A stretch of DNA of 57,657 nucleotides from a virus. The stretch is from positions 1 through 57,657 of the IMG/VR virus record IMGVR_UViG_3300042392_002002; one strand, written 5' to 3'. The position numbers and the translations under genes were made by a program. This document shows, piece after piece, positions 375 to 57,183 of the stretch; the first letter of the stretch is position 1; each line of letters starts with the position of its first letter. The notes beneath the pieces were generated by a model. That model was not told the DNA's origin and ran no database searches. It saw nothing but the letters and a program-made list of their open reading frames with translations.

Positions 375-704
375 TTAATCTAAGGTTTCCCACCATTCTG
401 TTATTCTATCTTTGAAATGTTTTTTTACATTTGAAAACTCTTCATCATACCACGACCCTTTTATTGTTGGATACATTAAATGTGATACTGAATCTAATAA
501 TAATTCCACAACTTCCTTTGTAAAAAAATGTAATTTGTAATCGTCATTTAATATAGGTCGATATCTATAATATTTTTTTGTTGCTAGTTTTAATGCGTGA
601 CCAAAAGACTCCTCTAACTTATCCATAGGAACTCTTCTAAGGAACCTTGGACTAAGTCCCGACTCTTCCCTTAATATTCTTCTTATGTTCTCTTGTAGGT
701 TCAT
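375..704 (-). CDS. Small protein with capsid-targeting-like leader
   Basis: 109 residues. The first 14 residues, MNLQENIRRILREE, form the leader shared by many genes here: a short basic amphipathic helix ending in Leu-Arg-Glu, then Glu. In T4-type phages such a leader sends proteins into the prohead and is removed after (L/I)-x-E. The remaining ~95 residues (basic around KLATKKYYRYRP, acidic and Trp-rich at the C-terminus) match no family I recognise. The ATG overlaps the stop of the upstream gene as ATGA, so the two are probably co-translated. Its first 34 bases (671-704) are identical to those of the metallopeptidase gene starting at 3404. Packaged head protein is inferred. Confidence 0.75.
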   Translation of the reverse strand: MNLQENIRRILREESGLSPRFLRRVPMDKLEESFGHALKLATKKYYRYRPILNDDYKLHFFTKEVVELLLDSVSHLMYPTIKGSWYDEEFSNVKKHFKDRITEWWETLD

Positions 705-1222
705 CTATTTAAATAATCATTAATTATTACTTGTATTTCAGGATCACTTCCTTTGTATATTATATCAACAAGATACCTATGAAGTGGATGAATTCTATTG
801 GTTAATACTCTTTCCTCAAACTCACCACCTTTACTTGTTCCAGTATCGTTAGGGTCTAAACCATAATAATTAAATGGTTCTACTTCATACTTTGTTTCTA
901 ATCTTGATTTATCAAGAACAAATACCATGTCATCATTTGAAATACTTTCACCTGACCCTTTACCTATTGATTGATCGGGCTTCCAATTTTTTTCTCTTGT
1001 GAGTGATATCGCACTTTGTTTTTCTGTGTCAGCCAATCTTTTATCTATATTAAGATATTCATCAGAAGGTTTGGTTCCGATAAGAGAATCCGAATTTATT
1101 ATTTTAATTCCAGTTTCAGTTGAGGTTTTATGATATAATGGTGTTCCTTGTATATCTTCTAACTTTTCAGATATAACCCCCATCATTGATCTAATCCTTT
1201 GTATGTTTTCTTGTAGGTTCAT
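701..1222 (-). CDS. Leader-bearing ADP-ribosyltransferase-like protein
   Basis: 173 residues. The leader MNLQENIQRIRSMMGVISE (1-19) ends in Ile-Ser-Glu. The body begins with GTPLYHKTS (residues 26-34), has AISLTRE at 71-77, a strand FVLDKSRL near 101-108 and FEERVL at 135-140. A Tyr-His-x-Thr-Ser start, a central Ser-Leu-Thr-Arg strand and a late Glu resemble ADP-ribosyltransferase-fold proteins; I infer this from motif order only. T4 packages and injects an ADP-ribosyltransferase (Alt) carrying a comparable leader, so an analogous role, modifying host proteins just after infection, is attractive. ATATTTAT lies 4 nt before the ATG. An RNA 2'-phosphotransferase-like or non-enzymatic member of the fold is an alternative. 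Confidence 0.6.
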   Translation of the reverse strand: MNLQENIQRIRSMMGVISEKLEDIQGTPLYHKTSTETGIKIINSDSLIGTKPSDEYLNIDKRLADTEKQSAISLTREKNWKPDQSIGKGSGESISNDDMVFVLDKSRLETKYEVEPFNYYGLDPNDTGTSKGGEFEERVLTNRIHPLHRYLVDIIYKGSDPEIQVIINDYLNR

Positions 1223-1226
1223 ATTA

Positions 1227-1848: not shown

Positions 1849-2766
1849 TCATATAAACATTATATTAGTGGCCTTACAACCAAACTTTTCATTTATTAAA
1901 GCTAGTAACTCAATTTTCCAATTACCTTTACGTCCCAAGTAATCCTCAATTTCTTCGGCAAACACTTCGTAAAATATTATAAAATTAAAGTTTGGGTTTT
2001 TAACATCAGGCATTTCATAACATACTTCAGGTAACTCACCCATTACTTCTTTAAAGTATTTACCATTATCGTCATAGTTATTACCATCAACCAATTTGAA
2101 TAAATAATCATCATAATTATTTTTTGGAAGAACAAACCCAACAGCATATGGGTCACAACAAACACCCATTCCACAATTATATTGAGCCCAATCATAATAG
2201 ATATCATCAAATCCATCAAACAACATATTAAGTAAATTGTTTAGAATGGGTTTAATGTTGGTTTCTTCCCTTAATATTCTTCTTATGGATTCTTTTAAGT
2301 TTTTTGGTTTTAATTTTTTAACTATTCTATCTATTTTTGGATCTATATCATTTATAATATCATTCACAACATTAAATGCTTCTCTTGCGGCTAGTTTTCC
2401 ACTGTCTTTGTTTTCATAATTAAACACAACATTATACACTCCTTTTTGTCCTTTAACTCCTCTTGTTCTTCCCCATCCTGTATTCATTCCGGCAAGTGTT
2501 TGTAATTCCAATGCCACATGTTCTATAATGTGTCCCATCCATGTTCCATCTTTAATTCTTTTAAGAAACCCTCCTGGTTTTCCTTCAGAACATCTGTGAC
2601 TTTTTAATGATGGTAAATATTCTTTTATTCTTTCGTAAAATCCTTCTATTTTATCTGATGGTTTTTCTTCAAATTCACCCAAATCTAAAATCATATGAAT
2701 AAGCTTATCTTTGGACTCACTCCATTTGTTTTTTCCATTGATAACATTGATTGATTTTATTTTCAT
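1849..2766 (-). CDS. Cyanophycin-synthetase N-terminal domain fused to an internal leader and a small C-terminal domain
   Basis: 305 residues. Residues 1 to ~145 closely resemble the N-terminal domain of cyanophycin synthetase CphA: MKIKSINVINGKNKWS, DLGEFEEKPSDKIEGFYERI, HRCSEGKPGGF (57-67), GTWMGHIIEHVALELQTLAG (74-93), KGVYNVVFNYE. The ATP-grasp and Mur-ligase domains of real CphA are absent. In some CphA enzymes this domain is reported to have a metallopeptidase-like hydrolytic site, and HIIEH (79-83) is kept here. KNLKESIRRILREE (155-168) then repeats the packaging leader internally, with Leu-Arg-Glu at 165-167, followed by ~137 residues containing CGMGVCCDPYAVGF. Cleavage after Glu167 would release a separate C-terminal protein. 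A fusion made by recombination between leader copies is likely, since an orphan leader lies just upstream at 2772-2807. Confidence 0.75.
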   Translation of the reverse strand: MKIKSINVINGKNKWSESKDKLIHMILDLGEFEEKPSDKIEGFYERIKEYLPSLKSHRCSEGKPGGFLKRIKDGTWMGHIIEHVALELQTLAGMNTGWGRTRGVKGQKGVYNVVFNYENKDSGKLAAREAFNVVNDIINDIDPKIDRIVKKLKPKNLKESIRRILREETNIKPILNNLLNMLFDGFDDIYYDWAQYNCGMGVCCDPYAVGFVLPKNNYDDYLFKLVDGNNYDDNGKYFKEVMGELPEVCYEMPDVKNPNFNFIIFYEVFAEEIEDYLGRKGNWKIELLALINEKFGCKATNIMFI

Positions 2767-2807: not shown

Positions 2808-3404
2808 CTATATATTATTTTTAACCATATTATAAAAGAACTCACTGATCTTATCAGGAGTTGTTATGTTCTGTTGTTTTAATTGTGATCTGTAAAACCC
2901 TACCATTGCAACTATTTGTGAGATAGGAACATTTTTATATAATGAAGGAGGAATAAACCCTTTATCTAACAATCCTTGTTTTTGAAGTTGTTTAATTTTT
3001 TTTCCTGCAAACTCATCTGCAACTTCTTCAGTATGTTTCATTAGTTTTGCTGCTTCCTCAACACTTATATCACCAAGATAACACTCATACATTATATCTT
3101 CACCATACTTTTTAAACTGATACTGATGTGCGGTCTCGTGAAATATAATAAACAATAGGTATTCTAACCTTTGGTTTAACGCAATTTTATTTATTAACAC
3201 ACCATCATGTAAAGCAACTCCCATAGCCGGCATCTTAAAATTGGCAAATTCTATTTTTTTGCAGTTTGATTGTGAAATAAAGTCTTTTACCTTTTCTATT
3301 AACTCATCAGACATTTCATGTCTTGATGTAATAACATCTATTAAGGCGTTAACGCCATCAGTTTCCTCCTTTAATATTCTTCTTATGTTCTCTTGTAGGT
3401 TCAT
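2808..3404 (-). CDS. Leader-bearing HExxH zinc metallopeptidase-like protein
   Basis: 198 residues. The leader MNLQENIRRILKEE (1-14) ends in Leu-Lys-Glu. After a short N-terminal region come LLFIIFHETAHQYQFKKYG with the zinc motif HETAH (89-93), and HTEEVADEFAGKK (about 124-136), where a Glu three to eight residues before the FAG could be the third ligand as in gluzincins. The length suits a minimal single-domain peptidase. A protease carried in the head and injected, or one acting on head proteins during maturation, are both possible. The 34 bases that encode the leader (3371-3404) are identical to 671-704. A degenerate box (ATAATTAT) precedes the ATG. Confidence 0.75.
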   Translation of the reverse strand: MNLQENIRRILKEETDGVNALIDVITSRHEMSDELIEKVKDFISQSNCKKIEFANFKMPAMGVALHDGVLINKIALNQRLEYLLFIIFHETAHQYQFKKYGEDIMYECYLGDISVEEAAKLMKHTEEVADEFAGKKIKQLQKQGLLDKGFIPPSLYKNVPISQIVAMVGFYRSQLKQQNITTPDKISEFFYNMVKNNI

Positions 3405-3450: not shown

Positions 3451-6400
3451 TTATCTATTCCAATCACCATTTTTAATTGTTTCCATCATCCAAGAAATAA
3501 TAGTTAATAACTCATCATTAGTTAGGTTGTTAATAGTTGTTATGTATTGGTCGTTTTGTTCAGTATGTCCATACTCGTCTTGATCAAATTCCAATATCTC
3601 AACAGCAATTTGGTCGCTGTCTTGAACCGTTATATCGTCAACATATTTGTTATCACTTAATTGGATTTCATATCCACTAAGTGTTCCACTATTATCTCCC
3701 CATTTATTACCATGTTTTAAAACAAAATCCCTGATATATTGTTTTAATACTTCTTTAGGGTTATCCATGTTTTTTAAAACCGAACTAATTTGACTAATGT
3801 CTAATCCAGACATTTCTATAAAATTATATAACCCTTCCTTTTCTATTGTCTTTAATAAGGATTGTTTTTTATTTTCTGATTCATTTATATTACGACCAAA
3901 AAAAGTGTCGTATTTATCTTTAATCTTATTATGAAAATGATTTGAAAGGAATTTATAAATCTCATCATACGGGTAATCATTTTCTCCGTAATTAGTTAAA
4001 TCATTGTAATAATTATCTATAAAATAATTTATGGCATGATCTTCAAAGGTTTCAAAATTAAAACCCACACCATTATTATATTTATCTAAATAAACATCGG
4101 TAATAATATTTAAATTCTCAAAGAACTCTTTTTCCATTAAACTCGTATCAACCCTTCTAAGAAAGAATGTAGATTCATTCATGGGTTTCCATTCGCAATT
4201 TGGTTTTGATATGGATCCAACATATATATTATCTATTGGCAAATAATCTTTAATTGTGTTTTTAACATCATTTCTTAAATTTATTGTATATTCAGCTCTT
4301 TGAAGAAAACTAGAAAATTTATCATTTAGTTCTTCCGTTCCAAATACCAAATAAATAATATAAAAATCGTCTTCGGATGTTACTCTAATTTCGCAAACAC
4401 AATCTTCTTCTTCTTTAAATGGTTCTATAAGATTTTTAATTATATTAACATACTTTGGTTGTTTTTCTTCAGATTCATTTATAACATTTCCTTCATTATC
4501 GTATTTTAGTTTAATGGCATCTAAACGAAAATCTGCATCAGTGTTATACTGAATATTGTGCCAATACGGAATAAGTTTAATACCTGTATATTCATATATT
4601 TTATCTTGTATTTGTTCAGCAAAATAAGTCTCTTCATTACCAGCATATTCATCGTTATCAAAATAAACTCTTATCATTGGTTTATTTTCATATTTTTTAA
4701 TATCAATAAAACTAACATCATCAAAAAACTCATGAATCATTTTTGTAACCAACTTAAGTTTTTTGTCTTCAGATTTGTCAACTGATTCCATTATTCCCCC
4801 ATCTTTACCTGAACCTTCATAGATAAGTTTGATTGCCTCTTTAGGTATGTCTTGAAAGGTTACTATATGTTTTTTACTTGATTCGTAGTGTCTATCCTTA
4901 TACCATTTGATTTCGGGCATCATTGTTGTATCAATTTCCCAAACATCATCATCATAAGTAGAATCAAACCACGATCTCTTATTTGTTGAGTTGGTTGCAA
5001 ATATTGCAGGTTTACATTTTGTTCCATATCCTGCATATATTTTATAACATTCACCAGCACGAACTTTTAATCCTTGTTCTATAATCTTGTCTCTGAACTT
5101 AGGATTAGATTTATGTATAACAATTTCGTTTGGAATTATTTCTTTACCAGCAGGGCTATAATTTTCATTAAGTTCTTCCTCATATCTTTCAGTATCTATG
5201 TAAAAATCAGGGTCCTTTTTTAATTCTGTTCGTTTCTTGTAGTCATACCAAGGAACAACATTTAAATTGGTATAATCATTTATAGTATCACATATTTCTG
5301 AACTCTCTAACTCTTCTTGTGTATCATAGTAAACCATAATCTCATTTCTTTTGGCGATGTATTCTAAATCTATAATATTATCAAACATGGTATATATAAT
5401 ATCTTTAACCAACTTAAGTTTATTATTTTCAGATTTGCCAATTGATTCTCTAAGATAAATGTTTTCTTGTTCATCACATTTGGGCGTTGTTTCCATAGTA
5501 ACGCCAACTGGAATATTAATGTAATCGTAAATAGTATTCCAAATTTCATCTAAAACATCACTATACATTTTTTGAATTCCTTGTGTGGTAGGCCAAAGTT
5601 TTGTTCCATACCCACCAATAAAAGTAACATTAACTACAGGTTCATTAAAAACCTCATCATTTTTTACATCATAACCACAAATGATATGTTTATATTCAGG
5701 AAAAATAATGTTGTCCATAATTTTTTCTATGATCTTGTTTCTTTTCTCATCACTTTTATCTATACTTTCGTTCATAAACTCAACCTCATCCTCACAATTA
5801 TCAACATGCCATGGTGAAAATACATAAGGTCTGAGACCCATAGCTTTTATTGATTCTTCCACAAAATTTAATTCATTAACAATTTCGTCATGATCAAAAT
5901 GTCTTTTTATTGACTTGGATCTGATTTCATAATCCTTATCAACAGGATTATATTCTACCCATATATCACAAAGTCCTTCCCAACTAATTTGAGATAACAA
6001 TATCTTAATTGTTCTTAAATTTTTTTGAATTTCTTTAGTGTTATCTACCTCCTCTTTAATAATATTATCATATCCTAACGTTTCTACTATTTCCCGAATA
6101 TCAGACAGATCATAACTGCGACTTAAATCGGTTGTATTTTTTTGTGCAGTTTTCCCATTTATTTCCCCTAACTGAACATAGGTTTTATGCATTCTAGGTT
6201 CATCACTATTAAGTTTAAGAACTCTTACCGAACTTTCATCATTAAAAGAATCATATAAAAAATCTTTAAATTTATAATTCTCATCTTTAGTTAATTTATT
6301 TTCATTATAAATAATATTAACTATTGGCCAACTATTAGTCATCCATATATTCCACCCTGCACCAATAATTTTAAATGGCAAATCAATTGATGGATCGTCT

Positions 6401-6624
6401 CCATCCGTTGTCCAAGACACTTTAACTAACCCTTTTTGGTTTTCAATTCTTTCAACCATTTCGGGGTTATCTTTTAGTATCTTCTTTAGGTTGTCTAATC
6501 CCCCAACTAATTCAGCAATAGAATACAACCCCTCATCTTCAATTTGTTTAATTAGTTTTGATTTGGTGTCACGAGTTTCCTCTTTTAAGATATGTCTAAT
6601 TAAATCTTTATTCACCATCATCAT
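3451..6624 (-). CDS. Giant polyprotein of capsid-internal proteins with repeated cleavage-like sites
   Basis: 1057 residues. It begins with a leader (DLIRHILKEE, Leu-Lys-Glu at 13-15). (I/L/M)-x-Glu followed by Ser, Glu or Asn recurs at Glu191, 286, 393, 487, 613, 717, 817 and 915, giving nine segments mostly 94-126 residues long. Several segments begin alike (ESIDKSDEKR, ESIGKSENNK, ESVDKSEDKK, ESENKKQS) and share a helix, then beta strands, then an IYxYT-like helix, so they are tandem homologues. Residues 16-191 carry the EGLYSIAELVGGLDNLKKIL module also found in the gene at 46731; 916-1057 carry a second version. Segment 488-613 (IVIHKSNPKFRDKIIEQGL, then AIFATNSTN) looks ADP-ribosyltransferase-like. 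I infer a precursor cut by the prohead protease into many small packaged proteins. Three adjacent ATGs (6624, 6621, 6618) are possible starts. Last gene of the leader operon. Confidence 0.8.
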   Translation of the reverse strand: MMMVNKDLIRHILKEETRDTKSKLIKQIEDEGLYSIAELVGGLDNLKKILKDNPEMVERIENQKGLVKVSWTTDGDDPSIDLPFKIIGAGWNIWMTNSWPIVNIIYNENKLTKDENYKFKDFLYDSFNDESSVRVLKLNSDEPRMHKTYVQLGEINGKTAQKNTTDLSRSYDLSDIREIVETLGYDNIIKEEVDNTKEIQKNLRTIKILLSQISWEGLCDIWVEYNPVDKDYEIRSKSIKRHFDHDEIVNELNFVEESIKAMGLRPYVFSPWHVDNCEDEVEFMNESIDKSDEKRNKIIEKIMDNIIFPEYKHIICGYDVKNDEVFNEPVVNVTFIGGYGTKLWPTTQGIQKMYSDVLDEIWNTIYDYINIPVGVTMETTPKCDEQENIYLRESIGKSENNKLKLVKDIIYTMFDNIIDLEYIAKRNEIMVYYDTQEELESSEICDTINDYTNLNVVPWYDYKKRTELKKDPDFYIDTERYEEELNENYSPAGKEIIPNEIVIHKSNPKFRDKIIEQGLKVRAGECYKIYAGYGTKCKPAIFATNSTNKRSWFDSTYDDDVWEIDTTMMPEIKWYKDRHYESSKKHIVTFQDIPKEAIKLIYEGSGKDGGIMESVDKSEDKKLKLVTKMIHEFFDDVSFIDIKKYENKPMIRVYFDNDEYAGNEETYFAEQIQDKIYEYTGIKLIPYWHNIQYNTDADFRLDAIKLKYDNEGNVINESEEKQPKYVNIIKNLIEPFKEEEDCVCEIRVTSEDDFYIIYLVFGTEELNDKFSSFLQRAEYTINLRNDVKNTIKDYLPIDNIYVGSISKPNCEWKPMNESTFFLRRVDTSLMEKEFFENLNIITDVYLDKYNNGVGFNFETFEDHAINYFIDNYYNDLTNYGENDYPYDEIYKFLSNHFHNKIKDKYDTFFGRNINESENKKQSLLKTIEKEGLYNFIEMSGLDISQISSVLKNMDNPKEVLKQYIRDFVLKHGNKWGDNSGTLSGYEIQLSDNKYVDDITVQDSDQIAVEILEFDQDEYGHTEQNDQYITTINNLTNDELLTIISWMMETIKNGDWNR

Positions 6625-7042
6625 ATTCTTCTTGCGTAAAATGGTATTTCATCTTCATTGTATAATCACCTTCAGCACTCCATTCACAACCAATAAACCA
6701 ACACATCAAGTTATTATATTTACCTTTCTTTTTCCCAAAAGAACCGTTACTTGTAAATGAATAATTAAGTAAAACTGTGTCCAATTCTTTATCAACTAAT
6801 TTCAGTTGGTTTGTAAACGAAAAAAGGTCAGGATCATCACACCAAGATGTTATTAACAATTCACCATCAATGCTGTTATGATTGTTATTATAATTAATAC
6901 TTCCAATTTCAATTTCTGTAAAAAGATTTGAATCTACATTACTTTGGATAATATAAGGAATGGATTGGGCGGATCTAACAAACCTTTCTTTTAGGTTTTC
7001 ATTTTCTTCTTCTTTTAATATGTGTCTAATTAACTCTTTCAT
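6608..7042 (-). CDS. Leader-bearing small protein
   Basis: 144 residues. The leader MKELIRHILKEE (1-12) is almost the same as that of the downstream polyprotein. The rest contains a beta-rich stretch (FTEIEIGSINYNNNHNSIDGELLITSW) and a hydrophobic and Trp-containing C-terminal part (NNLMCWFIGCEWSAEGDYTM). No known domain recognised. It overlaps the upstream stop by one base (TAATG) and the downstream polyprotein by 17 bases, so it is translated within the operon 8458-3451. Probably a packaged internal protein. Confidence 0.75.
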   Translation of the reverse strand: MKELIRHILKEEENENLKERFVRSAQSIPYIIQSNVDSNLFTEIEIGSINYNNNHNSIDGELLITSWCDDPDLFSFTNQLKLVDKELDTVLLNYSFTSNGSFGKKKGKYNNLMCWFIGCEWSAEGDYTMKMKYHFTQEEYDDGE

Positions 7043-7365
7043 TACATTACTTGGGATAAAAACTTTTTAATTGTTCTAATAACTTTTTGTCTATATGGAT
7101 TGTTTTCATTTGAAAAATTATCAATTGGTTCTGTAACATTATTATCTTCTAACATATTTAAAATCAATCTTACTTGTCTTTTTTTATTATCAAAAGTTCC
7201 AATATTATAATAATCATCATCTACTTTGAAATGAATCCTTTTAAGTCTAATATTGTCGTCAATATTTATTTCTTTAACTTCATATCTTCGCACAAGAAAA
7301 TTCATAACCTTTTGGTCAATTTCTTCTGTTTCTTCTTTCAATATGTATCTAATTAGTCCTCTCAT
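7042..7365 (-). CDS. Leader-bearing small protein
   Basis: 107 residues. Leader MRGLIRYILKEE (1-12), then a compact charged domain (NFLVRRYEVKEINIDDNIRLKR ending the first strands, then FKVDDDYYNIGTFDNKKRQVRLILNML) resembling a small alpha/beta unit. The start is a TAATG overlap with the upstream gene and the stop overlaps the next start in the same way. Third gene of the five-gene leader operon. No family match by eye; packaged role inferred from the leader. Confidence 0.72.
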   Translation of the reverse strand: MRGLIRYILKEETEEIDQKVMNFLVRRYEVKEINIDDNIRLKRIHFKVDDDYYNIGTFDNKKRQVRLILNMLEDNNVTEPIDNFSNENNPYRQKVIRTIKKFLSQVM

Positions 7366-7817
7366 TAAACAAAAATAAAATCATCAACTTTTAATGCTTT
7401 ATAGTTAGTCCTTGAAGAACCATACGTATCCTTTTCTTCTAACTTTAATTCTTCAGGTATATATTCATACATTTCAAATACATATTCACTTAATTTTTGA
7501 GACTCTATATATGGGTCAAAATTGTCTTCATATTTAAATGGAGTAAGGACATATGCCACTTGTCTGTTTTTAATATATTCAAGGCTATACGTCATTTTAG
7601 GTTTTAAACCATAGAACTCTTTTACTTTTTCATATTCAACAACCAAATCAATATAAATGCTTGTTATATATTCATCATAATTGTCATGTAATTTCCAACC
7701 AACAACAAATGGAAATTCTTTTTTTAATCCGTTAATAACAATATCAATACCCTTATCTATTTGTTGTTTAGATACTTCTTCTTTTAATATGTGTTTAATA
7801 AGTTTTCTCATTACCAT
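7365..7817 (-). CDS. Leader-bearing small protein
   Basis: 150 residues (148 if the second ATG at 7811 is used, which forms a TAATG overlap with the upstream stop and may be preferred). Leader MRKLIKHILKEE, then ~130 residues with a helix (QQIDKGIDIVINGLKKEF) followed by strands (YITSIYIDLVVEYEKV) and a C-terminal helix plus strand, the same order as the repeated unit of the polyprotein. Function unknown; likely a free-standing relative of those units. Confidence 0.72.
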   Translation of the reverse strand: MVMRKLIKHILKEEVSKQQIDKGIDIVINGLKKEFPFVVGWKLHDNYDEYITSIYIDLVVEYEKVKEFYGLKPKMTYSLEYIKNRQVAYVLTPFKYEDNFDPYIESQKLSEYVFEMYEYIPEELKLEEKDTYGSSRTNYKALKVDDFIFV

Positions 7818-8458
7818 CTACTTCCTCTTACTCTATCCACTTCTGAGCTACGCAGTTTATCTGTATATAATTTTTCCAACCATTCACGTTCATCTACAAT
7901 TCTTTTTTCTAACTCATCTCTTCTAAATAAAGTATTTTTGACAATAAAATCAATCATTTCATCATCTGTAACCCCTTCAGGTTTTGAAACAGGAGGAACG
8001 CAAACTTGAGACTTTTTAGGGTGTTCAGAAAAATCATCTATTGATATATCATTTCTTCCCAATGCACTTTTGATTTTTTCTAACAATGTATCTTCAAACC
8101 ATTCTTCTACAATATATCTTAAATAGTTTCTTCTTACCGGTATATCAGTTTCTAAATCATCTATAATATCTTCAGGTATTGAAAATTCTCCTGATTCAAA
8201 ATTTCGTTCACTTGTTTTTCTTTTGTCATCCCAAGCATCGTGATCATGGTTAAAATCTATAATAGCTTGAGCTATTTCCATACCATTATTACACCATTCA
8301 AAAGTATAGCTAAACGCATAGTCCTTTGTTTGATACATTTTAGATCCTGAAAAATAGTTATTTAACCAATTATATATTAGTTTTTCAACGTTTGGTGTTG
8401 GTTTTGGGTATTTCTTATTTACCTCCTCTTTTAATATTTTTCTAATTAGGTGTTTCAT
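7811..8458 (-). CDS. Leader-bearing protein, first gene of the leader operon
   Basis: 215 residues. Leader MKHLIRKILKEE (1-12). The body is charged and mostly helical: KLIYNWLNNYFSGSK, AQAIIDFNHDHDAWDD, NYLRYIVEEWFEDTLLEKI and a basic-acidic C-terminal helix (RRDELEKRIVDEREWLEKLY). HDHD could bind metal but fits no family I know. Preceded by GTATTTAT 6 nt before the ATG and by a terminator for the genes further upstream, so this is where the operon 8458-3451 is transcribed from. Confidence 0.75.
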   Translation of the reverse strand: MKHLIRKILKEEVNKKYPKPTPNVEKLIYNWLNNYFSGSKMYQTKDYAFSYTFEWCNNGMEIAQAIIDFNHDHDAWDDKRKTSERNFESGEFSIPEDIIDDLETDIPVRRNYLRYIVEEWFEDTLLEKIKSALGRNDISIDDFSEHPKKSQVCVPPVSKPEGVTDDEMIDFIVKNTLFRRDELEKRIVDEREWLEKLYTDKLRSSEVDRVRGSRW

Positions 8459-9160: not shown

Positions 9161-9325
9161 TTACTTTGTCTTCTTAACACAGTTAGGGTATCTCTTACCA
9201 AACATTGTCTTCATACCTTTTTGAGTATATCCTGCCCAACATTTTTCTGTAAGTTCACCTTCTTTCATTACTCTTTTAACTAATGAAATAAGTTCTGATT
9301 CTGTTAATCTTATTATTTTTTTCAT
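9161..9325 (-). CDS. 54-residue leader-bearing Cys-motif microprotein
   Basis: Short gene from the ATG at 9325. The N-terminus MKKIIRLTESELISLVKRVMKE has the leader layout and ends in Met-Lys-Glu before Gly. The C-terminal half is a compact basic motif, CWAGYTQKGMKTMFGKRYPN followed by CVKK, with two cysteines bracketing Gly-Tyr and Gly-Lys-Arg. I have the impression that similar Cys-Gly-Tyr tails occur in other large phages, but cannot confirm it. The gene sits exactly between the DUF2237 stop and the next ATG with 1-nt gaps, which strongly supports it being real despite its size. Confidence 0.75.
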   Translation of the reverse strand: MKKIIRLTESELISLVKRVMKEGELTEKCWAGYTQKGMKTMFGKRYPNCVKKTK

Positions 9326-11432: not shown

Positions 11433-14249
11433 TTAAGCCGTTTTCATCCCATCAGGATTTTTAATGGCCTCTATTACTTTACTTTGGTTTAATCCAGTGT
11501 CTAATCTTGATTGACAGGCAACATCAATTAATTCTTTGTCGGATTTTCCGTCTTTTACCGCGGCTTCTAATTTTCTTCCGAATTTTTGAAAGAATCCGGG
11601 ACCATTCCAACTTGCGTATGACATATGCACTAATAATCCTTTATTTCCCATAATTTTTTCTTTGGTCTTAGAGTCTTTAATATAACTACTCATGTTTTTA
11701 TTAAAGTATTTTTCCATAATTTCAGTTGCAAGATCTTCTAATTTTTCTTTTTTATCTCCACCTCTATATAACCATTTCCATTTTTTACAAAAGTTACCCA
11801 TGTTTGTCCATTTCATGTTTTTACCTTCACCACTAGATGTGGCTCCAGCTGCGATTTTTTCATCGTCTATAATCTTAAAAAATTCTTTTCCTTTATCAGT
11901 GCTTTCAATATTACCATTATACCTATCCAAACCAAACATAGTCTCAGTTGATTTACCCATACGGCTAGTTGGGTGCGGGCAAAATGGATTCCAATATCCT
12001 CCTTCAAAATTTGCAATTACTTTTTTTGTTATTGTTTTAAAATCGGAATCTGTGGTGGTTGTATTATTACTTGTTGTGTCACCACTTGTTGTATTATTGC
12101 TTGTTGTATCACTACTTTTTGTGTTTGTTTTGTTTTTGAATAATTTTTCTTTAATTTTGGATAAAATACCTTTTATACCAAATAAATCATTTTCTGATGA
12201 GTTTGTTGTTAAAGATGTATTAGTGTTATCAACATTTAAACCATCTTTAGTTGGGTGAGGTGGATATTTATTTGGGTCTGTATATTTGAAAAAGTATTGG
12301 TGAATTTTATTACCAGATGGATTTACAAAATGGTCTTTTCCGTCAAAAGTGATTGGTGTTATGTCTTGATATCCTTTTGAACTTAATTGTTGTTTTAAAG
12401 GACCTACTTGATCTAAAGCTCGTTTTTCTGAACTACCACCAGTAGATCCTCTTGTTGAAATTCCCATGTATGCTTTACCATCAGTACTAGGACCAATAGT
12501 TGCGCTCCACGTTACCGTAGAGTTTTTAGAATCTACATTTAACTTTAAATCAGTTATGTCAGGGTTAATTCCATCATCATAAAGTTTTTTTAGTTTCTCC
12601 TCAATTTGGGTTCCAATAAGAGCCCCTTGTTTGTCAGATTTTCGTCTTTCAAACGCATGAAGTAAATCAGCATCTCCTGGTATTGGTGATTTCCAAGTAG
12701 CCCCAAATGTTTCTTCTTTTATTAACATTTTTTTTATATTTTTGTAATTAATCTGATTTGGAATTAAATCTTTTTTTCTAATTAAGTTGTAATTTTCATT
12801 AACATTATTAGTTTCTTTAATTTTTTCTTTAAGAATTCTTGCAAATTCATTTTGTATCATTTTAGTAAATTTAACATATGGAGAGTCATCAGATTCAGAA
12901 TTATATTTATATTTACCTTCAGGTGGTCGTTTAGATCTACCTAAATAAGACAATCCTGAAATATTGGTAATACATTTATGTCCACCACTATTTGATTTAA
13001 TTAAATCCCAAGCGTTTACACTAATTGAGTCCAACATTTTCATTTCGTTTTGTGTCAATTCACTAAATGGTTTTTTCATTACAACATCAATATCATTTAA
13101 TATTTTTTCACCATTATCCATTCTTTTAAATTCTTTTCCATACAAAGCATTAAAGTCTTTAAATGTAAAACCAACAGATTCTTCATTAAAACTTTTTCCT
13201 GATTCAGATATCCATTTAATTGTGGACAAAGGAATGTCTTTATTTTGTAATTGTGATTTCCACTTGTTTAAGACCTCATCTTTAATTTCACCTAAGTTCA
13301 CACCTTTAAGTGCTCTTTCTTTCTTAAATGGATTACAAGACGCTTGTACCAACCCTAAGGGCCAAGCAATCACCAAGAAGTCAGCGTCAGGATTATTTCT
13401 GAATGGTGTGTATCTATCATATGATCCTGGTTTCATCATACTACCTCCACCATATTGAACTATTATCCCATCATCAACTTTAACATTCTTATTTATCTTC
13501 ATTGATTGGACATACATCTCTTTATTTTTTTCTAATGTGTCCACATCAGCATATCCACTATCTTTAATTTGAGATTTAATATACATTAAAATACTTAATA
13601 GTGATGGATTTGCATTCATTACGATATTTTCTAAAAATTTTGGTTTGTTTTTAAATGCTAATAATAATTTATTGGTTACCATTCCCATAACCATTTTGTT
13701 TTTTTGTAATGATTGATCTTTATCTACCTTAAACAAATAATTCATTACCTCTTCGGGTGTTATATCGTATTGTGCGTAGTTTGCTGAATCAACAGTAGAA
13801 ATTAAAGTTATATCGTCTGATGGAAAAATGTCGTTTGGTGATACGGTTTGAGATATTGTCTCAACGTTTGATCTTGACGCTTTAAAATTGGTTGATGTTC
13901 CTTGTTCTACACCAGCTTGCGTATCGTGATGGTCAGTATGTATAACAAACATTGGTTTACCGTGAGCAAAGTCAACTAACACCGGCATAACATCACCTTC
14001 GGCGTCTAATTTTTTAATTGCAAATTCCTTATCACCATATTGGATAATTTCAGAGTCAACCACTTTAATTCCATTTTGTTCTAAGTAGTTTTTCATACCT
14101 AAAGCAGTTGTCACTCCATCCAAATCCTGATGAAAATATATTTTTGCCTTAGGATATCGTTTAGATAATTCTTTTATGTTTCTAATACCAGACTCAAAAA
14201 TTAATTTTTTTGATTCTTCTGTTAATATTTGTATTACAAGATCTTTCAT
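11433..14249 (-). CDS. Leader + DHH phosphoesterase + middle domain + lysozyme-like domain
   Basis: 938 residues. The leader MKDLVIQILTEE ends in Leu-Thr-Glu at 9-11. Residues ~33-480 carry a DHH-family phosphoesterase pattern: FHQDLDG (39-45), Asp92 in LVDFAHG, TDHHD (105-109) and Asp154, the four metal sites typical of RecJ/NrnA-like nucleases and phosphodiesterases. NIKKMLIKEE (~504-513) is a second leader-like site, Ile-Lys-Glu at 510-512. An unidentified domain follows to ~665, then a Ser/Thr/Asn linker with repeats of DTTSNNTTS (~670-743). The C-terminal ~195 residues start NFEGGYWNPF and contain RMGKSTETMFGLDR and SYASWNGPGFFQKFG, which I read as a lysozyme-like muramidase with the Glu of FEGG as candidate acid. 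Cleavage at the two sites would separate leader, DHH part and the middle/lysozyme part. Confidence 0.78.
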   Translation of the reverse strand: MKDLVIQILTEESKKLIFESGIRNIKELSKRYPKAKIYFHQDLDGVTTALGMKNYLEQNGIKVVDSEIIQYGDKEFAIKKLDAEGDVMPVLVDFAHGKPMFVIHTDHHDTQAGVEQGTSTNFKASRSNVETISQTVSPNDIFPSDDITLISTVDSANYAQYDITPEEVMNYLFKVDKDQSLQKNKMVMGMVTNKLLLAFKNKPKFLENIVMNANPSLLSILMYIKSQIKDSGYADVDTLEKNKEMYVQSMKINKNVKVDDGIIVQYGGGSMMKPGSYDRYTPFRNNPDADFLVIAWPLGLVQASCNPFKKERALKGVNLGEIKDEVLNKWKSQLQNKDIPLSTIKWISESGKSFNEESVGFTFKDFNALYGKEFKRMDNGEKILNDIDVVMKKPFSELTQNEMKMLDSISVNAWDLIKSNSGGHKCITNISGLSYLGRSKRPPEGKYKYNSESDDSPYVKFTKMIQNEFARILKEKIKETNNVNENYNLIRKKDLIPNQINYKNIKKMLIKEETFGATWKSPIPGDADLLHAFERRKSDKQGALIGTQIEEKLKKLYDDGINPDITDLKLNVDSKNSTVTWSATIGPSTDGKAYMGISTRGSTGGSSEKRALDQVGPLKQQLSSKGYQDITPITFDGKDHFVNPSGNKIHQYFFKYTDPNKYPPHPTKDGLNVDNTNTSLTTNSSENDLFGIKGILSKIKEKLFKNKTNTKSSDTTSNNTTSGDTTSNNTTTTDSDFKTITKKVIANFEGGYWNPFCPHPTSRMGKSTETMFGLDRYNGNIESTDKGKEFFKIIDDEKIAAGATSSGEGKNMKWTNMGNFCKKWKWLYRGGDKKEKLEDLATEIMEKYFNKNMSSYIKDSKTKEKIMGNKGLLVHMSYASWNGPGFFQKFGRKLEAAVKDGKSDKELIDVACQSRLDTGLNQSKVIEAIKNPDGMKTA

Positions 14250-14677: not shown

Positions 14678-15469
14678 TTATAAATTGTTAACCGCATCAG
14701 TATTTGTTTCCATGTGATTACTATTTTTTACACTTGAAACAATTTTGGATATAAAATTTTTAGCGTCATCGTTTTGAGATCCAAATGAGGTATAATAATA
14801 TTTAACTTTTGAACTATTGTCTTTAACAAATTTCTTATAAAAATTACCTACTGACCCACCCATCCAAATGTCCACAAGTAAAATTTCACTAAAATCACCT
14901 GAGTTAGAATTTAGTAATTCTTTTCCAGGTTTATATCCACCAGAAAATAAATAAAGTATTTTAGAAGATGGTGTAATATTATTTTCCTTTAAAGACTCTA
15001 AAACTTTTTTATATGAATTAAGACCACTTACCTTATGGTCATTAGCAACAAATATAGTATATTTATCTTTTAATTTATTAACATAATCCCACATATATAC
15101 CCCACTTTTTTTTCCACCAACATTTATTCCACCATAAACCATAAGTAATGGGGCTGTTTTATTTTTAGAAAACAATATTTCACCATAATCATTAATAGAC
15201 GTTTTACCTATTAACTCGTCATTATTTAATTTATTTGTTACCTCATCACCATATGATTTGCCAAATTCTTTTTTATATGCCAATTTTGTTTTTGGTCCCA
15301 TAACACCATCAATACCATCGTTATTTGGTCCAGACAATCCAATATTATAACCTTTATTAACTAAATCTGTTTGAATTTTGATTATTTCATCATTTTTTTC
15401 TTCAGATATTAATGTTTTAATATTACCTAACTTAGATTCTAACAATATTTTAAATCTATTTACATCCAT
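14678..15469 (-). CDS. Leader-bearing peptidoglycan-binding protein
   Basis: 263 residues. The N-terminus MDVNRFKILLESKLGNIKTL followed by ISEE offers two cleavage-like sites (Leu-Leu-Glu at 9-11 and Ile-Ser-Glu at 21-23). Residues ~30-70 form a peptidoglycan-binding type 1 repeat (IQTDLVNKGYNIGLSG, DGIDGVMGPKTKLAYKKEFG). The remaining ~180 residues look like an alpha/beta domain with a hydrophobic strand and glycine turn (PLLMVYGGINVGGKKSGVY, SSKILYLFSGGYKPGKELL), perhaps hydrolase-like, but no catalytic set is clear. A packaged protein that binds cell wall during entry is a reasonable guess. ATATTTAT lies 18 nt before the ATG. Confidence 0.72.
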   Translation of the reverse strand: MDVNRFKILLESKLGNIKTLISEEKNDEIIKIQTDLVNKGYNIGLSGPNNDGIDGVMGPKTKLAYKKEFGKSYGDEVTNKLNNDELIGKTSINDYGEILFSKNKTAPLLMVYGGINVGGKKSGVYMWDYVNKLKDKYTIFVANDHKVSGLNSYKKVLESLKENNITPSSKILYLFSGGYKPGKELLNSNSGDFSEILLVDIWMGGSVGNFYKKFVKDNSSKVKYYYTSFGSQNDDAKNFISKIVSSVKNSNHMETNTDAVNNL

Positions 15470-17496: not shown

Positions 17497-18407
17497 GATG
17501 TAAACATTTTATATTCCCTCATTCTTCTTGGTTCAAGACCGGGGAATTTTTTAAACAGGTTTGAACTTGTGGTTAATATTTCTTCTGCCGCTAAATATGT
17601 ATTGCCCGATTTTAAAGCTTTAATAAAATCACTTTTTATAATACCAGGACCCATATTATATGCCATTGATACCATAGCATTATACATTCCTTGACTAACC
17701 TTAATTTTAATACCTTCTGTTTCCCATTTATTAAGAATTTTATTTATTATCTCTTCGGAATTACTAATATCGTCTTTAAGTAGTATCTCCGCCTGATCTT
17801 TAGTGATTTTAGTTTTACCTGGTATTATTTTATTATAATTCGGTAGGAATTCATACCCTTCATTTTCACCTCTAAATATTGCGTGACCATAACCAATAGT
17901 GTATGCCCCATCACCAAGATTATAGGCGACCAAAACAGGTTCTCCTTTTTTTGTTATGGAACCTTCTTCATATCTCATGTGTTCATATAATTCTGGACTT
18001 GATTTTCTAATTCTTAGTGAAATAATTTTTTCGATTGTTTCTTTCTCAATTTGATCAGCCTTTTTTACAACTGGTTCAACCATTTTATTTAGTTGTTTAA
18101 TTGAAAGTAATCCAATAAAAGAATATATTACATATTTTAAGATTTTTTTTCTTAATTCAGGTGGAATATTTTTAATTTTATCCACAACACTTTCAACGTA
18201 TTGGATCGCATCTTCTTTTGTTTTAACCCATAACTTTGATTTATCTATATCTTTTTTAACATTGGTGAAATCCCACTCCATGTCAGGTTCGGTTTTACCG
18301 TCCTCAACAATTAAAGATATTTTGAAAACCATGTCGTCCAAAATACCTTCATAAATAAGTCTATTATTGAATGATCTAAGTTGTTCTTCTGTTAATGACA
18401 CTTTCAT
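17493..18407 (-). CDS. Leader-bearing GH24 (T4-type) lysozyme with membrane segment
   Basis: 304 residues. The leader MKVSLTEEQLRSFNNRLIYE (1-20) ends in Ile-Tyr-Glu before Gly. A likely transmembrane or hydrophobic helix (LKYVIYSFIGLLSIK, ~90-104) follows. Residues ~130-300 form a GH24 lysozyme: MRYEEGS with the catalytic Glu at 147 or 148, YTIGYGHA (169-176), ITKDQAEILL, and NAMVSMAYNMGPG. It hydrolyses peptidoglycan. With a packaging-type leader and an internal hydrophobic helix it is more likely a virion entry lysozyme than the main endolysin, since a GH19 endolysin is present in the lysis cassette. ATATTTAT lies 4 nt before the ATG. Confidence 0.87.
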   Translation of the reverse strand: MKVSLTEEQLRSFNNRLIYEGILDDMVFKISLIVEDGKTEPDMEWDFTNVKKDIDKSKLWVKTKEDAIQYVESVVDKIKNIPPELRKKILKYVIYSFIGLLSIKQLNKMVEPVVKKADQIEKETIEKIISLRIRKSSPELYEHMRYEEGSITKKGEPVLVAYNLGDGAYTIGYGHAIFRGENEGYEFLPNYNKIIPGKTKITKDQAEILLKDDISNSEEIINKILNKWETEGIKIKVSQGMYNAMVSMAYNMGPGIIKSDFIKALKSGNTYLAAEEILTTSSNLFKKFPGLEPRRMREYKMFTS

Positions 18408-28418: not shown

Positions 28419-28723
28419 TCTTTTTTATTTCTACCCTGACAATGCGCCTTCTGACTAAATCCTTTTGGGTTATTACAATTTATTGACTTTTTATATTCTT
28501 TTGACCATTTTTCGTCAATTGGTTCTTTGGACAATTTCTTTTTCCAAAACTTGAATAGGTTTTCTTTATCGTAATCATCTTTTTTTTGATCCCAACCACA
28601 ATCATGACAAAGATAAGGATGTGAATCATCATCTTCTTTTTTCCAAGAGTGTTCACACTTCTTACATTCAATTTTGTCGTTGAATATTCTATCTGCCTGT
28701 TTTTCTGTTAATAATATTTTCAT
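28415..28723 (-). CDS. Leader-bearing zinc-ribbon protein
   Basis: 102 residues from the ATG at 28723, which shares its A with the upstream TAA (TAATG). MKILLTEKQADRIFNDKIE resembles the leaders of the MKIII type (Leu-Thr-Glu at 5-7). A zinc ribbon follows: CKKCEHSW then CHDCGWD. The C-terminus has SINCNNPKGFSQKAHCQGR, a compact Cys-containing basic tail that I believe recurs in unrelated proteins of other large phages. Binding of nucleic acid or protein through the ribbon is inferred; possibly packaged. Confidence 0.7.
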   Translation of the reverse strand: MKILLTEKQADRIFNDKIECKKCEHSWKKEDDDSHPYLCHDCGWDQKKDDYDKENLFKFWKKKLSKEPIDEKWSKEYKKSINCNNPKGFSQKAHCQGRNKKD

Positions 28724-29040: not shown

Positions 29041-29891
29041 AACTGAATTTTTTCTTTAGTTTTATTATCATAAATAGTGAAAGGTGTTGCAATTATTATC
29101 CAATCAACATATTTGTAATCTTGGTCATATGCTTTTTCACTAGCTTTGATTTGAATTGTTTTGGTTCCATAATCAGGATGTGACATAATTAAATCTGTTC
29201 CAAAGACCATATCAATTAAATCTCCATTACCACCTTCATATTCCACTTTGAATCCTTTGTTTTGTAAATGTTCTTTAACTCTTTGTTCGGCACTTTCTCC
29301 AATGGCGGAAGTTCTTTGTATATTCTTGGTATAGTTTAACAGTTCTTCCACATCTTTAAAGTATTTTGCTAATAATTTTTCCAAGTATGGTTTAATTTTT
29401 GTCAAAGCATTGTTTGGGTCATTTATAATTTCTCGAATTATGTCTTTTGATCTATCACCACCTCTATAAATAAGATCTGTAAGTAGTTCTGCTAAATCAT
29501 AATAGTTCGTGTTCAACTTGTTAATTGGTTGCCAATCACCATTTAAATAAATCAATCTACCACCTCTAACTCTTTTATCAATAAAATTGTTTTTTTCTGT
29601 TTCTGATATTTTACCTAATGATTGTAATAATTCGGATCCTTCAATAAATTTAGTTTGTAAGTCCTTTGGGATTTCGGTTCCTAATTCATAAATTTTTCTA
29701 TTTATTATCTTTTTTAATCCAATACCTTCGTCTTTATGAAGATTACTTTTTAATGTTCCAATTTTTTTACAAAGTAACATTTTTTGTTTGTTTCCTGCAA
29801 ATCTTTCACAAAAGTTATATTCAGATTTATCATCAGACTCAATCATTAAACTTTTAATTCTTTCTATATTTTCTCTTATTAATTTATCCAT
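29037..29891 (-). CDS. Leader-bearing PD-(D/E)XK-like nuclease
   Basis: 284 residues. The leader MDKLIRENIERIKSLMIESD has Met-Ile-Glu at 16-18 before Ser. The middle is helical and basic. The C-terminal ~100 residues carry IGESAEQRVKEHLQNKGFKV, then GGNGDLIDMVFG and TKTIQIKASEK, i.e. the E...(G)D...QxK pattern of Mrr-type restriction endonuclease folds, and end in a strand WIIIATPF. A nuclease carried in the head could attack host or competitor DNA at entry; how the phage genome is spared is unknown. The acidic protein encoded directly downstream may be linked. Starts 2 nt after the upstream gene's stop. Confidence 0.72.
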   Translation of the reverse strand: MDKLIRENIERIKSLMIESDDKSEYNFCERFAGNKQKMLLCKKIGTLKSNLHKDEGIGLKKIINRKIYELGTEIPKDLQTKFIEGSELLQSLGKISETEKNNFIDKRVRGGRLIYLNGDWQPINKLNTNYYDLAELLTDLIYRGGDRSKDIIREIINDPNNALTKIKPYLEKLLAKYFKDVEELLNYTKNIQRTSAIGESAEQRVKEHLQNKGFKVEYEGGNGDLIDMVFGTDLIMSHPDYGTKTIQIKASEKAYDQDYKYVDWIIIATPFTIYDNKTKEKIQL

Positions 29892-46730: not shown

Positions 46731-47177
46731 TCATCCAACCAACTCATCATCCTCCTCATCTACCTCATCTGTTGTGACTCCCCTTAAATCGTAGGCCTCA
46801 GACAACCATTCCTGTGTGACTTCCTGTATTTCAGAGTAGTTAAATCCAAAAACTTTTTCTAAAAATGACCAAATTATACTATAATTGATGTAAACAAAAT
46901 CAAATTCATCATCGTAAACCATTAGATTATTTCCTATTTCATATCTAAATAAAGTCAAATTAGGTTTTTCTTCACTATTAATAACATCCAAATCATTAAA
47001 TAAATTAAGAAAATCTATTGGTGATTCAATTCCAACAAGTTTTTTAAGATTATCAATCCCCCCAACCAATCCGTAAACACTTTTCCAACCATCTTCTTTA
47101 ATCATATCAATTAAAGATCCCTTAACAGAATTTTCTTTAATTAACTTTTGTTGACGTTCTGAAATTATTATTTTCAT
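46731..47177 (-). CDS. Leader-bearing protein sharing the GGxDNLKK module
   Basis: 148 residues. The leader MKIIISERQQKLIKE (1-15) ends in Ile-Lys-Glu before Asn. The following LIDMIKEDGWKSVYGLVGGI then DNLKKLVG matches residues 24-50 of the 1057-residue polyprotein (LIKQIEDEGLYSIAELVGGL, DNLKKIL), and more weakly the polyprotein's last segment. So this is a free-standing member of the same packaged family. GTATTTAT lies 5 nt before the ATG; the terminator at 46691 ends the unit. Confidence 0.75.
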   Translation of the reverse strand: MKIIISERQQKLIKENSVKGSLIDMIKEDGWKSVYGLVGGIDNLKKLVGIESPIDFLNLFNDLDVINSEEKPNLTLFRYEIGNNLMVYDDEFDFVYINYSIIWSFLEKVFGFNYSEIQEVTQEWLSEAYDLRGVTTDEVDEEDDELVG

Positions 47178-47442: not shown

Positions 47443-47961
47443 TTACAATTCCACAACTATATCCCCACTTTTACATGAATTTTCTTTTAAATTTTCTTTT
47501 TTACTTCTTGGTCTAACACCAAAATATAAAAAGTTACCGTCATCAGAAAAAGCAGAACTAACAATTTTTAATTCATTACTATCTTTTTGTATGAGAAATT
47601 CAATAACATCAAAGTATTCCTCATCTTCATTATTAACCATTCTTTTTGTAAATATGATTCTTTTATTACAAGGATTGTGCGTTTTAAAGCTATCAATAAT
47701 CTTACCAATATCTTTTTTAATTATCGGTATCAATAACTTATCACTAACACCAATCCTATAATCGTTATCTGAATTATTTTTTTCATAAAACAAATCAATA
47801 TTTTCCTTATACGAATTATCCCCATGTCGATCAAACCACTGATGGTATGTGGATATTATATTATATAACATTTTATCATAGACTTCACTACCTTTTTGTT
47901 TAGGAAATTTTCTTTCCTCCAAAAGATATTCTCTGACAATTCTTTCTATTAATGTTTTCAT
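47443..47961 (-). CDS. Leader-bearing hypothetical protein
   Basis: 172 residues. MKTLIERIVREYLLEE ends in Leu-Leu-Glu before Glu, a good leader. The body starts helical (VYDKMLYNIISTYHQWFDRH), then strands (KRIIFTKRMVNNEDEEYFDV, LKIVSSAFSDDGNFLYFGV). Family not recognised. ATATTTAT lies 5 nt before the ATG, directly after the terminator of the AAA ATPase unit. Confidence 0.72.
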   Translation of the reverse strand: MKTLIERIVREYLLEERKFPKQKGSEVYDKMLYNIISTYHQWFDRHGDNSYKENIDLFYEKNNSDNDYRIGVSDKLLIPIIKKDIGKIIDSFKTHNPCNKRIIFTKRMVNNEDEEYFDVIEFLIQKDSNELKIVSSAFSDDGNFLYFGVRPRSKKENLKENSCKSGDIVVEL

Positions 47962-55777: not shown

Positions 55778-55935
55778 AGTAAAAATAAATAAAATAAAAT
55801 TATTTACTCTCTTGAAGAATCTTTTTAAGAAACCCCCATATTCCACGGGCAGGTTGAGTTCACTAATAAATACGAATACAATTGGGATTAGTGGTTAATA
55901 AATCCTCGTATTGAGCAAACTATGATTTTAGTTTA

Positions 55936-57183
55936 TTATTTAAGATTCCAATTTTTGTATTTTGTTTCAATTTTTCTTTTTCCATATTTTTTTTCCATAA
56001 TTTGTTGATGAAGTTCCCAATTGATGATTGATTCACTAACTTGTTCATCGTCTTTTGCCATAGCATATAATTTTGATATTTTCTTTAACATTTTATTTGC
56101 AACATATTGGAAGTTTTCAATTTCATCTTCAAAAAATTTGGTTGGATTTTTTTCGTATTTCATAACATATTTCAAAAACTTTTGTCTAATTGCATCTGTC
56201 TTTTGAATTCCCTCCAAATTTCCTTCCAACCCTGGAGGTAAAATGCCAAGTTGAGTTCCAAATTTTATAACATCATCCATCCCATGTTCCGTCATTGTCA
56301 TAAACATTTGCATTCTATTATTAACTAAATCAATATAACTTACTTCTAATACTACATTAATTTTTTCATCTATTGTCATGTCGGATGGGTCATCACCAAT
56401 GTGTTCAATAAGAGCATCTAATCTATCTTCACTTTCTTTTAATTGATTGATGAAGTCTTCAAATGTGAAGTTTTTAATTTCAACGAGTTCTTTATAAACC
56501 ACATTATTTTCTAAAAATTCTTTGAATTGTGACTTTGTAATATTTTTTCTTTTTAATTTGTAAGCCACTTCAGTTGGCCTTACAAGATTTTCAATACCAG
56601 AAATATAATACAAGTATCTAAAAAAAACTCTATCAATTACCGGTATTCCAAAAATACCTCTTCTTTGTGTTGCTTGATATTCAGCGTCTTGACCAATTAA
56701 ACCAAATTGTTTTGATTGTTTATCATATTTGTGTTTTATTTCATGAGCTAAAGATGCAACATGTTCGTCTTTGTCTTCTTCCATTTTTTCAATAAGACCT
56801 TCAGGTTTCCAATTTTCACCAACAGCAAATGTTATTGTTAATCCCAAAATTGTTGAAGGTTCGTTTTCTTTCATATAAACATCCCTATTAAATCCAAAAG
56901 CACCTCCCATTCCCATTGAGACAATATCTAAGACCCCTTCTTCATCTTCAATCTCCTCAATTTTTACTGTAAGAGTATATGAATCAATTTTGATTTTTTT
57001 CTTATCACCTAATTCAAATTCTAATTCACCATCAAAGTTATACTCATCTTGAATGTCTCTTATTGATTTGATGTCTCTTTCAACAATATCATATAACGTA
57101 TCGGCAGCATCCAAAATATTATCAGGAACCCCTAAAGCTTCGTTAATTAAATTAAGTTGTGATTCTCTTATAATGATTTTCAT
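55936..57183 (-). CDS. Leader-bearing HExxH metallopeptidase-like protein
   Basis: 415 residues. MKIIIRESQLNLINEALG has Ile-Arg-Glu at 5-7 before Ser and Ile-Asn-Glu at 13-15 before Ala. A beta-rich N-terminal part (KIKIDSYTLTVKIEEIEDEE) precedes ASLAHEIKHKYDKQ with zinc motif HEIKH (147-151) and, downstream, NLVRPTEVAYKLK whose Glu may be the third ligand. The C-terminal ~190 residues are helical. The order resembles HExxH proteins of large phages that carry AHE-x-K-H. ATATTTAT lies 4 nt before the ATG. Packaged protease is inferred. Confidence 0.72.
   Translation of the reverse strand: MKIIIRESQLNLINEALGVPDNILDAADTLYDIVERDIKSIRDIQDEYNFDGELEFELGDKKKIKIDSYTLTVKIEEIEDEEGVLDIVSMGMGGAFGFNRDVYMKENEPSTILGLTITFAVGENWKPEGLIEKMEEDKDEHVASLAHEIKHKYDKQSKQFGLIGQDAEYQATQRRGIFGIPVIDRVFFRYLYYISGIENLVRPTEVAYKLKRKNITKSQFKEFLENNVVYKELVEIKNFTFEDFINQLKESEDRLDALIEHIGDDPSDMTIDEKINVVLEVSYIDLVNNRMQMFMTMTEHGMDDVIKFGTQLGILPPGLEGNLEGIQKTDAIRQKFLKYVMKYEKNPTKFFEDEIENFQYVANKMLKKISKLYAMAKDDEQVSESIINWELHQQIMEKKYGKRKIETKYKNWNLK

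Follow-up and report, generated by a model that had tools for sequence, protein, structure and literature searches.

A 57.7-kb viral DNA fragment and its long relatives encode numerous unrelated proteins whose N-terminal leaders are drawn from a small recurring set; many of these leaders end at an (L/I)-x-E-type motif. They are probably T4-type capsid-targeting sequences (CTSs) that have expanded to a genome-wide sorting code, under which the tagged proteins would be packaged into the phage head and cleaved there. The window, the whole stretch analysed here, is the 57,657-base virus record IMGVR_UViG_3300042392_002002, a fragment of a larger genome. It has a GC content of 30%, carries nearly all of its genes on the minus strand, and is a piece of a large T4-like Bacteroidetes phage.

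The closest long contigs are G001 (IMGVR_UViG_3300034117_001582, 292 kb), G003 (294 kb) and G006 (304 kb). They have many genes in common with the window, with identities of up to 98% in G001. Their gene order is T4-like (portal, protease, acidic scaffold-like protein, capsid protein). A small gene that runs in the other direction was assigned as bS21-like by position and appearance, without a profile match. The bS21-encoding Bacteroidetes myoviruses described by Chen et al. (2022, PMC9723584) have predicted hosts among Flavobacteriia and their relatives, in lakes. They likewise carry bS21 between portal and protease on the opposite strand and reach 331 kb, and the relatives of the window almost certainly belong to this group. 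A search of the main text of that paper turned up no description of the leaders, and encapsulation of bS21 itself is only speculated on there. Flavobacterium phage vB_FspM_immuto (MW353175; immuto below) is a cultured relative.

Two further features of the window concern repeats. Positions 19859-24891 encode two long proteins with TPTPTVTPT-type repeats beside several glycosyltransferases, possibly glycosylated fibres, and the protein at 52559-53245 is built with repeated (V/I)E(D/N)TIQNGVK units.

Recurring leaders in the window and its relatives

We translated the DNA at all 18 gene starts for which a first-pass annotation had proposed recurring leaders. A leader of one of a few recurring types was present at every start, and the internal copy also proved real (Table 1). 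The starts, by which genes are named below, are the high coordinates of the genes because all of them lie on the minus strand. The proposed (L/I/M)-x-E end held for 17 of the 18 when the first position was widened to L/I/M/V/F, with the candidate site 11-23 residues in; the leader of 28723 has no such site. By itself, (L/I/M)-x-E also occurs within residues 9-25 of 11 of the 61 unlisted window genes. As for the description of the leaders as basic and amphipathic, the former applies weakly, with net charges up to the site of -1 to +3, and the latter was supported in the relatives, the hydrophobic moment in G001 being 0.44 for leaders, 0.32 for shuffled leaders and 0.27 for other genes.

Table 1. 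Leaders encoded in the window, with the residue that follows the candidate site.
Leader position	Strand	Leader	Next residue	Gene	Remarks
666..704	-	MNLQENIRRILRE	E	375-704	109 aa
1166..1222	-	MNLQENIQRIRSMMGVISE	K	701-1222	173 aa; DarT/KptA-like ART fold (predicted)
2260..2301	-	KNLKESIRRILREE		1849-2766	Internal copy, after Cyanophycin_syn N-terminal domain
3366..3404	-	MNLQENIRRILKE	E	2808-3404	198 aa; HETAH motif
6580..6624	-	MMMVNKDLIRHILKE	E	3451-6624	1057 aa
7010..7042	-	MKELIRHILKE	E	6608-7042	
7333..7365	-	MRGLIRYILKE	E	7042-7365	
7779..7817	-	MVMRKLIKHILKE	E	7365-7817	
8426..8458	-	MKHLIRKILKE	E	7811-8458	
9260..9325	-	MKKIIRLTESELISLVKRVMKE	G	9161-9325	54 aa
9765..9803	-	MNLQESIRRILRE	E	9327-9803	DUF2237
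14193..14249	-	MKDLVIQILTEESKKLIFE	S	11433-14249	938 aa; DHH-like
15401..15469	-	MDVNRFKILLESKLGNIKTLISE	E	14678-15469	
18348..18407	-	MKVSLTEEQLRSFNNRLIYE	G	17493-18407	Phage_lysozyme domain at 159-298
28673..28723	-	MKILLTEKQADRIFNDK (MKILLTEKQADRIFNDKIECK)		28415-28723	Leader-type N-terminus without L/I-x-E site
29838..29891	-	MDKLIRENIERIKSLMIE	S	29037-29891	Nuclease-like by motif only
47133..47177	-	MKIIISERQQKLIKE	N	46731-47177	
47917..47961	-	MKTLIERIVREYLLE	E	47443-47961	
57139..57183	-	MKIIIRESQLNLINE	A	55936-57183	415 aa; HEIKH

The internal copy reads KNLKESIRRILREETNI and occupies about residues 156-172 of its protein. In G001 the part downstream of it stands alone as a gene and begins with a leader of its own, MNQQESIRKILREETNI (94% identical). 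In the window gene a Cyanophycin_syn N-terminal domain is fused to the front of a leader-bearing protein, which leaves the leader internal, and G006 141671-142969 likewise contains an internal RLTESELVRIVKKILNEE. At the other end of the proteins, short basic Cys-containing modules (GYTQKGMKTMFGKRYPNCVKK, NPKGFSQKAHCQGR, CARGKASAKAKYDVYPSAY and AGKMSDSAKKAAC) recur at the C-termini of leader-bearing or head-cluster proteins, such as those at 9161-9325 and 28415-28723 in the window and at 149774 and 150229 in G001.

Repetition was measured by comparing N-terminal 25-residue segments, all against all, at a local BLOSUM62 score of at least 35 and with body-homologous pairs left out. The window contains 28 such N-terminal pairs, compared with 1 among internal segments, 4 among C-termini and 2 among shuffled N-termini. 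The recurrence of near-identical leaders on unrelated proteins, as first described, thus lies far beyond the chance level. The corresponding numbers were 284 against 8, 10 and 11 in G001, 113 against 8, 22 and 12 in G003, and 312 against 16, 21 and 17 in G006.

A strict rule for calling leader genes gave 11 in the window (control 2), 67 in G001 (control 4), 55 in G003 (control 6) and 64 in G006 (control 8), so that the leaders extend across the relatives at 55-67 genes per 290-300 kb contig (controls 4-8). The window count falls below the earlier 18 because the rule needs partners inside one genome. The distant 642-kb phage LR756502 has 244 leader genes by this rule (control 21) and immuto has 9 (control 0), or about nine to a dozen overall. 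Applied to T4 as a positive control, the rule called 4 genes (control 0), among them those for IPII and IPIII, both of which begin with MKTYQEFIAE, the classic capsid-targeting sequence. No leader excess above control was seen in S-PM2 (1, control 0), RM378 (0, control 2) or Mel-JY01 (7, control 4), indicating that leader expansion is not a general trait of T4-like phages.

Pooled with those of the relatives, the window leaders form one large network of 226 proteins, some of which are chance members. One leader, MNLQENIQRIKxMMGx(I/L)xE, was found on some two dozen different proteins in IMG/VR, of which two resemble P-loop kinases by eye. The immuto leaders include MENFDLKKFLVENxLT... and MKKQILSEQFxRMQxLAGIITES, and the scaffold-like protein of this phage ends in RWQKLAGIIK, which resembles one leader class.

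The candidate site is enriched to differing degrees. In G001, [LIVMF]-x-E falls within residues 8-27 of 63 of the 67 leaders and of 78 of 178 other charged N-termini (p=3.5e-14). The excess is smaller in G003 (38/55 vs 101/215, p=0.004), where 17 of the 55 leaders have no clear motif in this range, and in the 642-kb phage a recognisable site is present in 148 of the 244 called leaders (about 60%). The site-less leaders in the window, in G003 and in the 642-kb phage, together with the one internal leader copy, are points against the CTS reading. The number of tagged proteins also counts against it, because a phage with 55-67 internal proteins would go far beyond what T4 is known to have.

Leader boundary and candidate processing machinery

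Conservation falls at the end of the leader. In four leader classes, each comprising 19-29 mutually unrelated proteins, information content is 2-4 bits per column up to the E and about 0.5-1.5 beyond it; only the neighbours of E count as evidence for a boundary, since E itself is required by the search pattern. The cellular DUF2237 proteins (PDB 3ush, 4ioh and 2lq3) align through their residues 3-5 to residues 17-19 of the window protein, just past its leader. As the cellular proteins begin where the leader ends, the leader of 9803 is an added piece. In the 57183 family, E15 and G18-V19-P20 are invariant in 26 members, down to 41% identity. AlphaFold2 (AF2) predicts the leader of 57183 to be disordered (pLDDT about 30-44) and the body to be ordered with high confidence, as would be expected for a detachable tag.

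Leaders are also exchanged at this boundary. Orthologs of the DHH-like protein (arrows mark the candidate site) begin with MKDLVIQILTEESKKLIFE↓SGIRNI in the window, MKMVITESQYKRLLNE↓SGIRNI in G001, MRKIISE↓SGIRNI in G003 and MVMRKNLILE↓SGLRDI in G006, and with MISKYNQFINE↓EVGLRNI and MLRKYGQFINE↓EVGFKNL in the huge phages W01 and W02, respectively. This protein therefore carries at least four unrelated leaders over six phages, with the common junction E↓(S/E)-x-(I/L/F)-R/K. Similarly, the leader of the 46731-47177 protein is of the KIIISE type in the window and of the KELIRHIIKEE type in the G006 ortholog.

The relatives encode a T4-type prohead protease, which the first-pass annotation had named as something to locate; a lack of it, which would have spoken against the reading, is thus not seen in them. 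Profile PF03420 (T4 gp21 family) matched six long relatives with E-values of about 3e-23 to 6e-26 (T4 itself, 4e-113), and a gp21-type protease is present in immuto; the window itself, a 57.7-kb fragment lacking head genes, gave no PF03420 match, and this lack of head genes is another point against the CTS reading. The Gp23 profile matched the same six relatives (E 1e-62 to 1e-65), near the protease in T4-like order. At the position of the LTE↓A cleavage site of T4 gp23 (PMC9026906), the capsid proteins of the relatives contain ASHLINE↓AAS, ASFLINE↓ATS and similar sequences (INE↓A or INE↓S), those of W01 and W02 contain INE↓N, and that of immuto contains VSE↓A.

In the huge phages the PF03420 match is weak and lies within proteins of about 700 residues. 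In three phages of 460-640 kb (LR756500, LR756502 and LR745206) it falls inside open frames of 635-727 residues, which suggests that their protease may be fused or extended. The leader consensus of the 642-kb phage is M-K-(H/Y)-(L/I)-K-x-(Y/F)-x-x-F-E-S. It retains a hydrophobic residue 4 and an aromatic residue 7, the two positions on which targeting of T4 IPIII depends (MKTYQEF; PMC9026906); the leader classes of the window are laid out differently. The 642-kb phage type is the one leader type that can be aligned to the T4 CTS, and the match is short, which also counts against the CTS reading. As about 60% of the called leaders of this phage have a recognisable site and their P3 residues also include Y and F, the specificity of its protease may be broader.

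Many genes of the window, G001, G003 and G006 have the hexamer TATTTA 11-13 or 19-23 bases upstream of the ATG; in the window these include 704, 1222, 8458, 9803, 14249, 18407, 47177, 47961 and 57183. Among operon-first genes of G001, TATTTA precedes 21 of 31 leader genes and 32 of 140 others (p=5.6e-6), with similar enrichment in G003 (p=4e-5) and G006 (p=5e-8), and with no significant difference in the window alone (2/3 vs 7/36, p=0.13). The non-leader genes with the hexamer include those for portal, protease, tail and endolysin-like proteins. As leader and structural genes have it in common, the leader genes look late, and its position suggests that TATTTA is a late-promoter-like signal. 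Transcripts from a promoter at this site would be nearly leaderless, and the phages concerned also have a gene for a bS21-like ribosomal protein.

Taken together, the leaders, their boundary and swaps, the TATTTA hexamer, and the protease and capsid site of the relatives support the capsid-targeting reading of the first-pass annotation in part, with packaging, cleavage and injection the steps that we infer. The leader genes would be expressed late in infection, as the hexamer indirectly suggests. By comparison with T4, the leader helix would bind the prohead core, so that the tagged protein is built into the head. A gp21-type protease would then cut after (L/I)-x-E, as the motif, the protease and the capsid site suggest, and the mature protein would be released into the capsid before DNA packaging and kept in the head. 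The least certain step is the last, in which what the head contains would probably reach the next host together with the DNA, like T4 IPI and Alt.

Cargo and alternative explanations

Most leader-bearing proteins have no assignment in Pfam or PHROGs. Among 69 leader proteins of G001, Pfam identified pterin dehydratase, LysM, lysozyme, PAP2, GNAT, carboxypeptidase-regulatory, EF-hand and other domains, one each. The notion of a programmable arsenal therefore exceeds the evidence, because most cargo has no assignable function and the known functions are mixed. The DUF2237 and lysozyme (18407) assignments in the window were confirmed. Support for an ADP-ribosyltransferase (ART) at 1222 is modest: the AF2 model (pLDDT 74) found DarT or KptA/Tpt1 as its nine best PDB folds (prob 0.77-0.99; best E 0.009, about 0.01, at prob 0.99), and the predicted cargo looks like an ART of the DarT/KptA type. 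The DHH assignment corresponds to a weak Pfam match below the cut-off, the nuclease to a motif-level resemblance, and the peptidases to HExxH motifs in two window cargo proteins. In the family of one of these, 57183, H147, E148 and H151 are invariant. Its predicted fold matched nothing in the PDB, tblastn against named phages returned nothing, and a scan of genome contigs gave no cellular relative.

The main rival to capsid targeting with delivery is packaging without delivery, in which packaging and trimming occur as proposed but the proteins serve within the head or as core components (in head size or DNA condensation or as scaffold breakdown products). In T4, cleavage at the same motif processes the core proteins gp22, gp67 and gp68, most of which is lost from the head (PMC9026906). 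Some leader genes lie in the head cluster next to the capsid gene, and for most of the cargo no enzymatic domain is known. The cargo is, however, diverse and varies among close relatives, and it includes enzyme domains with no obvious role in the head (lysozyme, GNAT, PAP2, pterin dehydratase, ART-like). We consider this rival unlikely.

It is considerably less plausible that the leaders are localisation or partner-binding tags unrelated to the head, taking proteins, for example, to a host complex or into a replication compartment, with (L/I)-x-E incidental. Such tags would also be helical and recurrent, as the leaders are, and packaging is itself something we infer. This explanation leaves unaccounted for the boundary at E, the E junction kept on swapping, the invariant E15 of 57183 and the late-promoter association. 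It also sits poorly with the recognisable non-virion genes of the window, which have no leaders; recognisable genes without a leader include those for thymidylate synthase, an RNA ligase, a BCS1-like AAA ATPase, a UvrC-like protein, phosphoesterases and glycosyltransferases. The BCS1-like ATPase (48162-49145) is shared with huge phages. Phage BCS1 proteins have been suggested to move folded proteins into the head (PMC7824862), and by that analogy the ATPase would fit a cargo-loading phage.

The leader might instead be a mobile 5' cassette serving transcription or translation starts, or a recombination copy with no role at the protein level. The MNLQE leaders of the window have nearly identical first codons (ATGAACCTACAAGA) and background identity upstream and downstream, which indicates that leader copies do spread by recombination. 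In other classes, however, synonymous sites diverge while the protein sequence holds; in the RLTE class, identical codons occur at only 60-65% of identical residues. Moreover, upstream DNA is not shared, and the same cargo keeps (L/I)-x-E behind unrelated leaders. We regard this explanation as highly improbable, and a pure DNA-level cassette is rejected because of the synonymous divergence. Finally, paralogy within one family accounts for some recent duplicates among neighbours (e.g. G001 229250 and 229736) and is rejected for the bulk of the pairs, with a negligible chance of being the general explanation, because pairs with detectable body homology were removed and the bodies match different Pfam families.

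If capsid targeting with delivery is extended to the large T4-lineage Bacteroidetes phages as a whole, 20-25% of their genes would encode head cargo with lineage-specific, interchangeable leaders, and genome growth would largely be growth of a host-delivered payload. We offer this tentatively, as a possibility somewhat short of an even chance. If true, a signal readable from DNA would predict the protein payload of huge phages, hundreds of ‘hypothetical’ genes would become candidate injected effectors and counter-defence proteins, and some of the genes that 300-640 kb phages carry would be accounted for. The gain of a 12-20 residue leader would be a route by which a new gene product becomes a virion protein. 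The reading would also supply a practical annotation rule for phages and a direct proteomics prediction for a cultured phage.

Comparison with known systems

We found no earlier description of these leaders in the literature searched, and absence there is not proof. The closest parallel is T4, in which IPI, IPII, IPIII and Alt have capsid-targeting sequences cut by gp21 and propeptides are 10-19 residues long (PMC9026906). As in T4, the leaders are short, N-terminal, near-identical on unrelated proteins and end in L/I-x-E, and the lineage has a gp21-type protease, a gp23-type capsid protein with a matching site and, by indirect indication, late expression. Unlike T4, which tags few proteins, the 290-300 kb relatives have 55-67 by the strict count and the 642-kb phage has 244. 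Several leader classes run in parallel in each genome and leaders reach 23 residues; packaging here is a prediction from sequence.

The phages phiKZ, SPN3US and 201phi2-1 also process many head proteins after E and eject them, and two paralogs there have an identical 15-residue N-terminus; they differ in their S/A-x-E motif, in propeptides that mostly exceed 100 residues and in having about 8-20 processed proteins (PMC5694885). Polyvalent proteins are likewise thought to be co-injected with DNA and include ART domains, but they are large and multidomain (PMC5512222), whereas the cargo here consists mostly of separate small proteins with a common leader. The idea that T4-like phages can use capsid targeting to load a variety of proteins has already been put forward by T4 researchers (PMC9026906). 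New here are the scale, the parallel leader classes within one genome, the exchange of leaders from one lineage to another and the presence of the system in Bacteroidetes phages, some of them 635-642 kb long.
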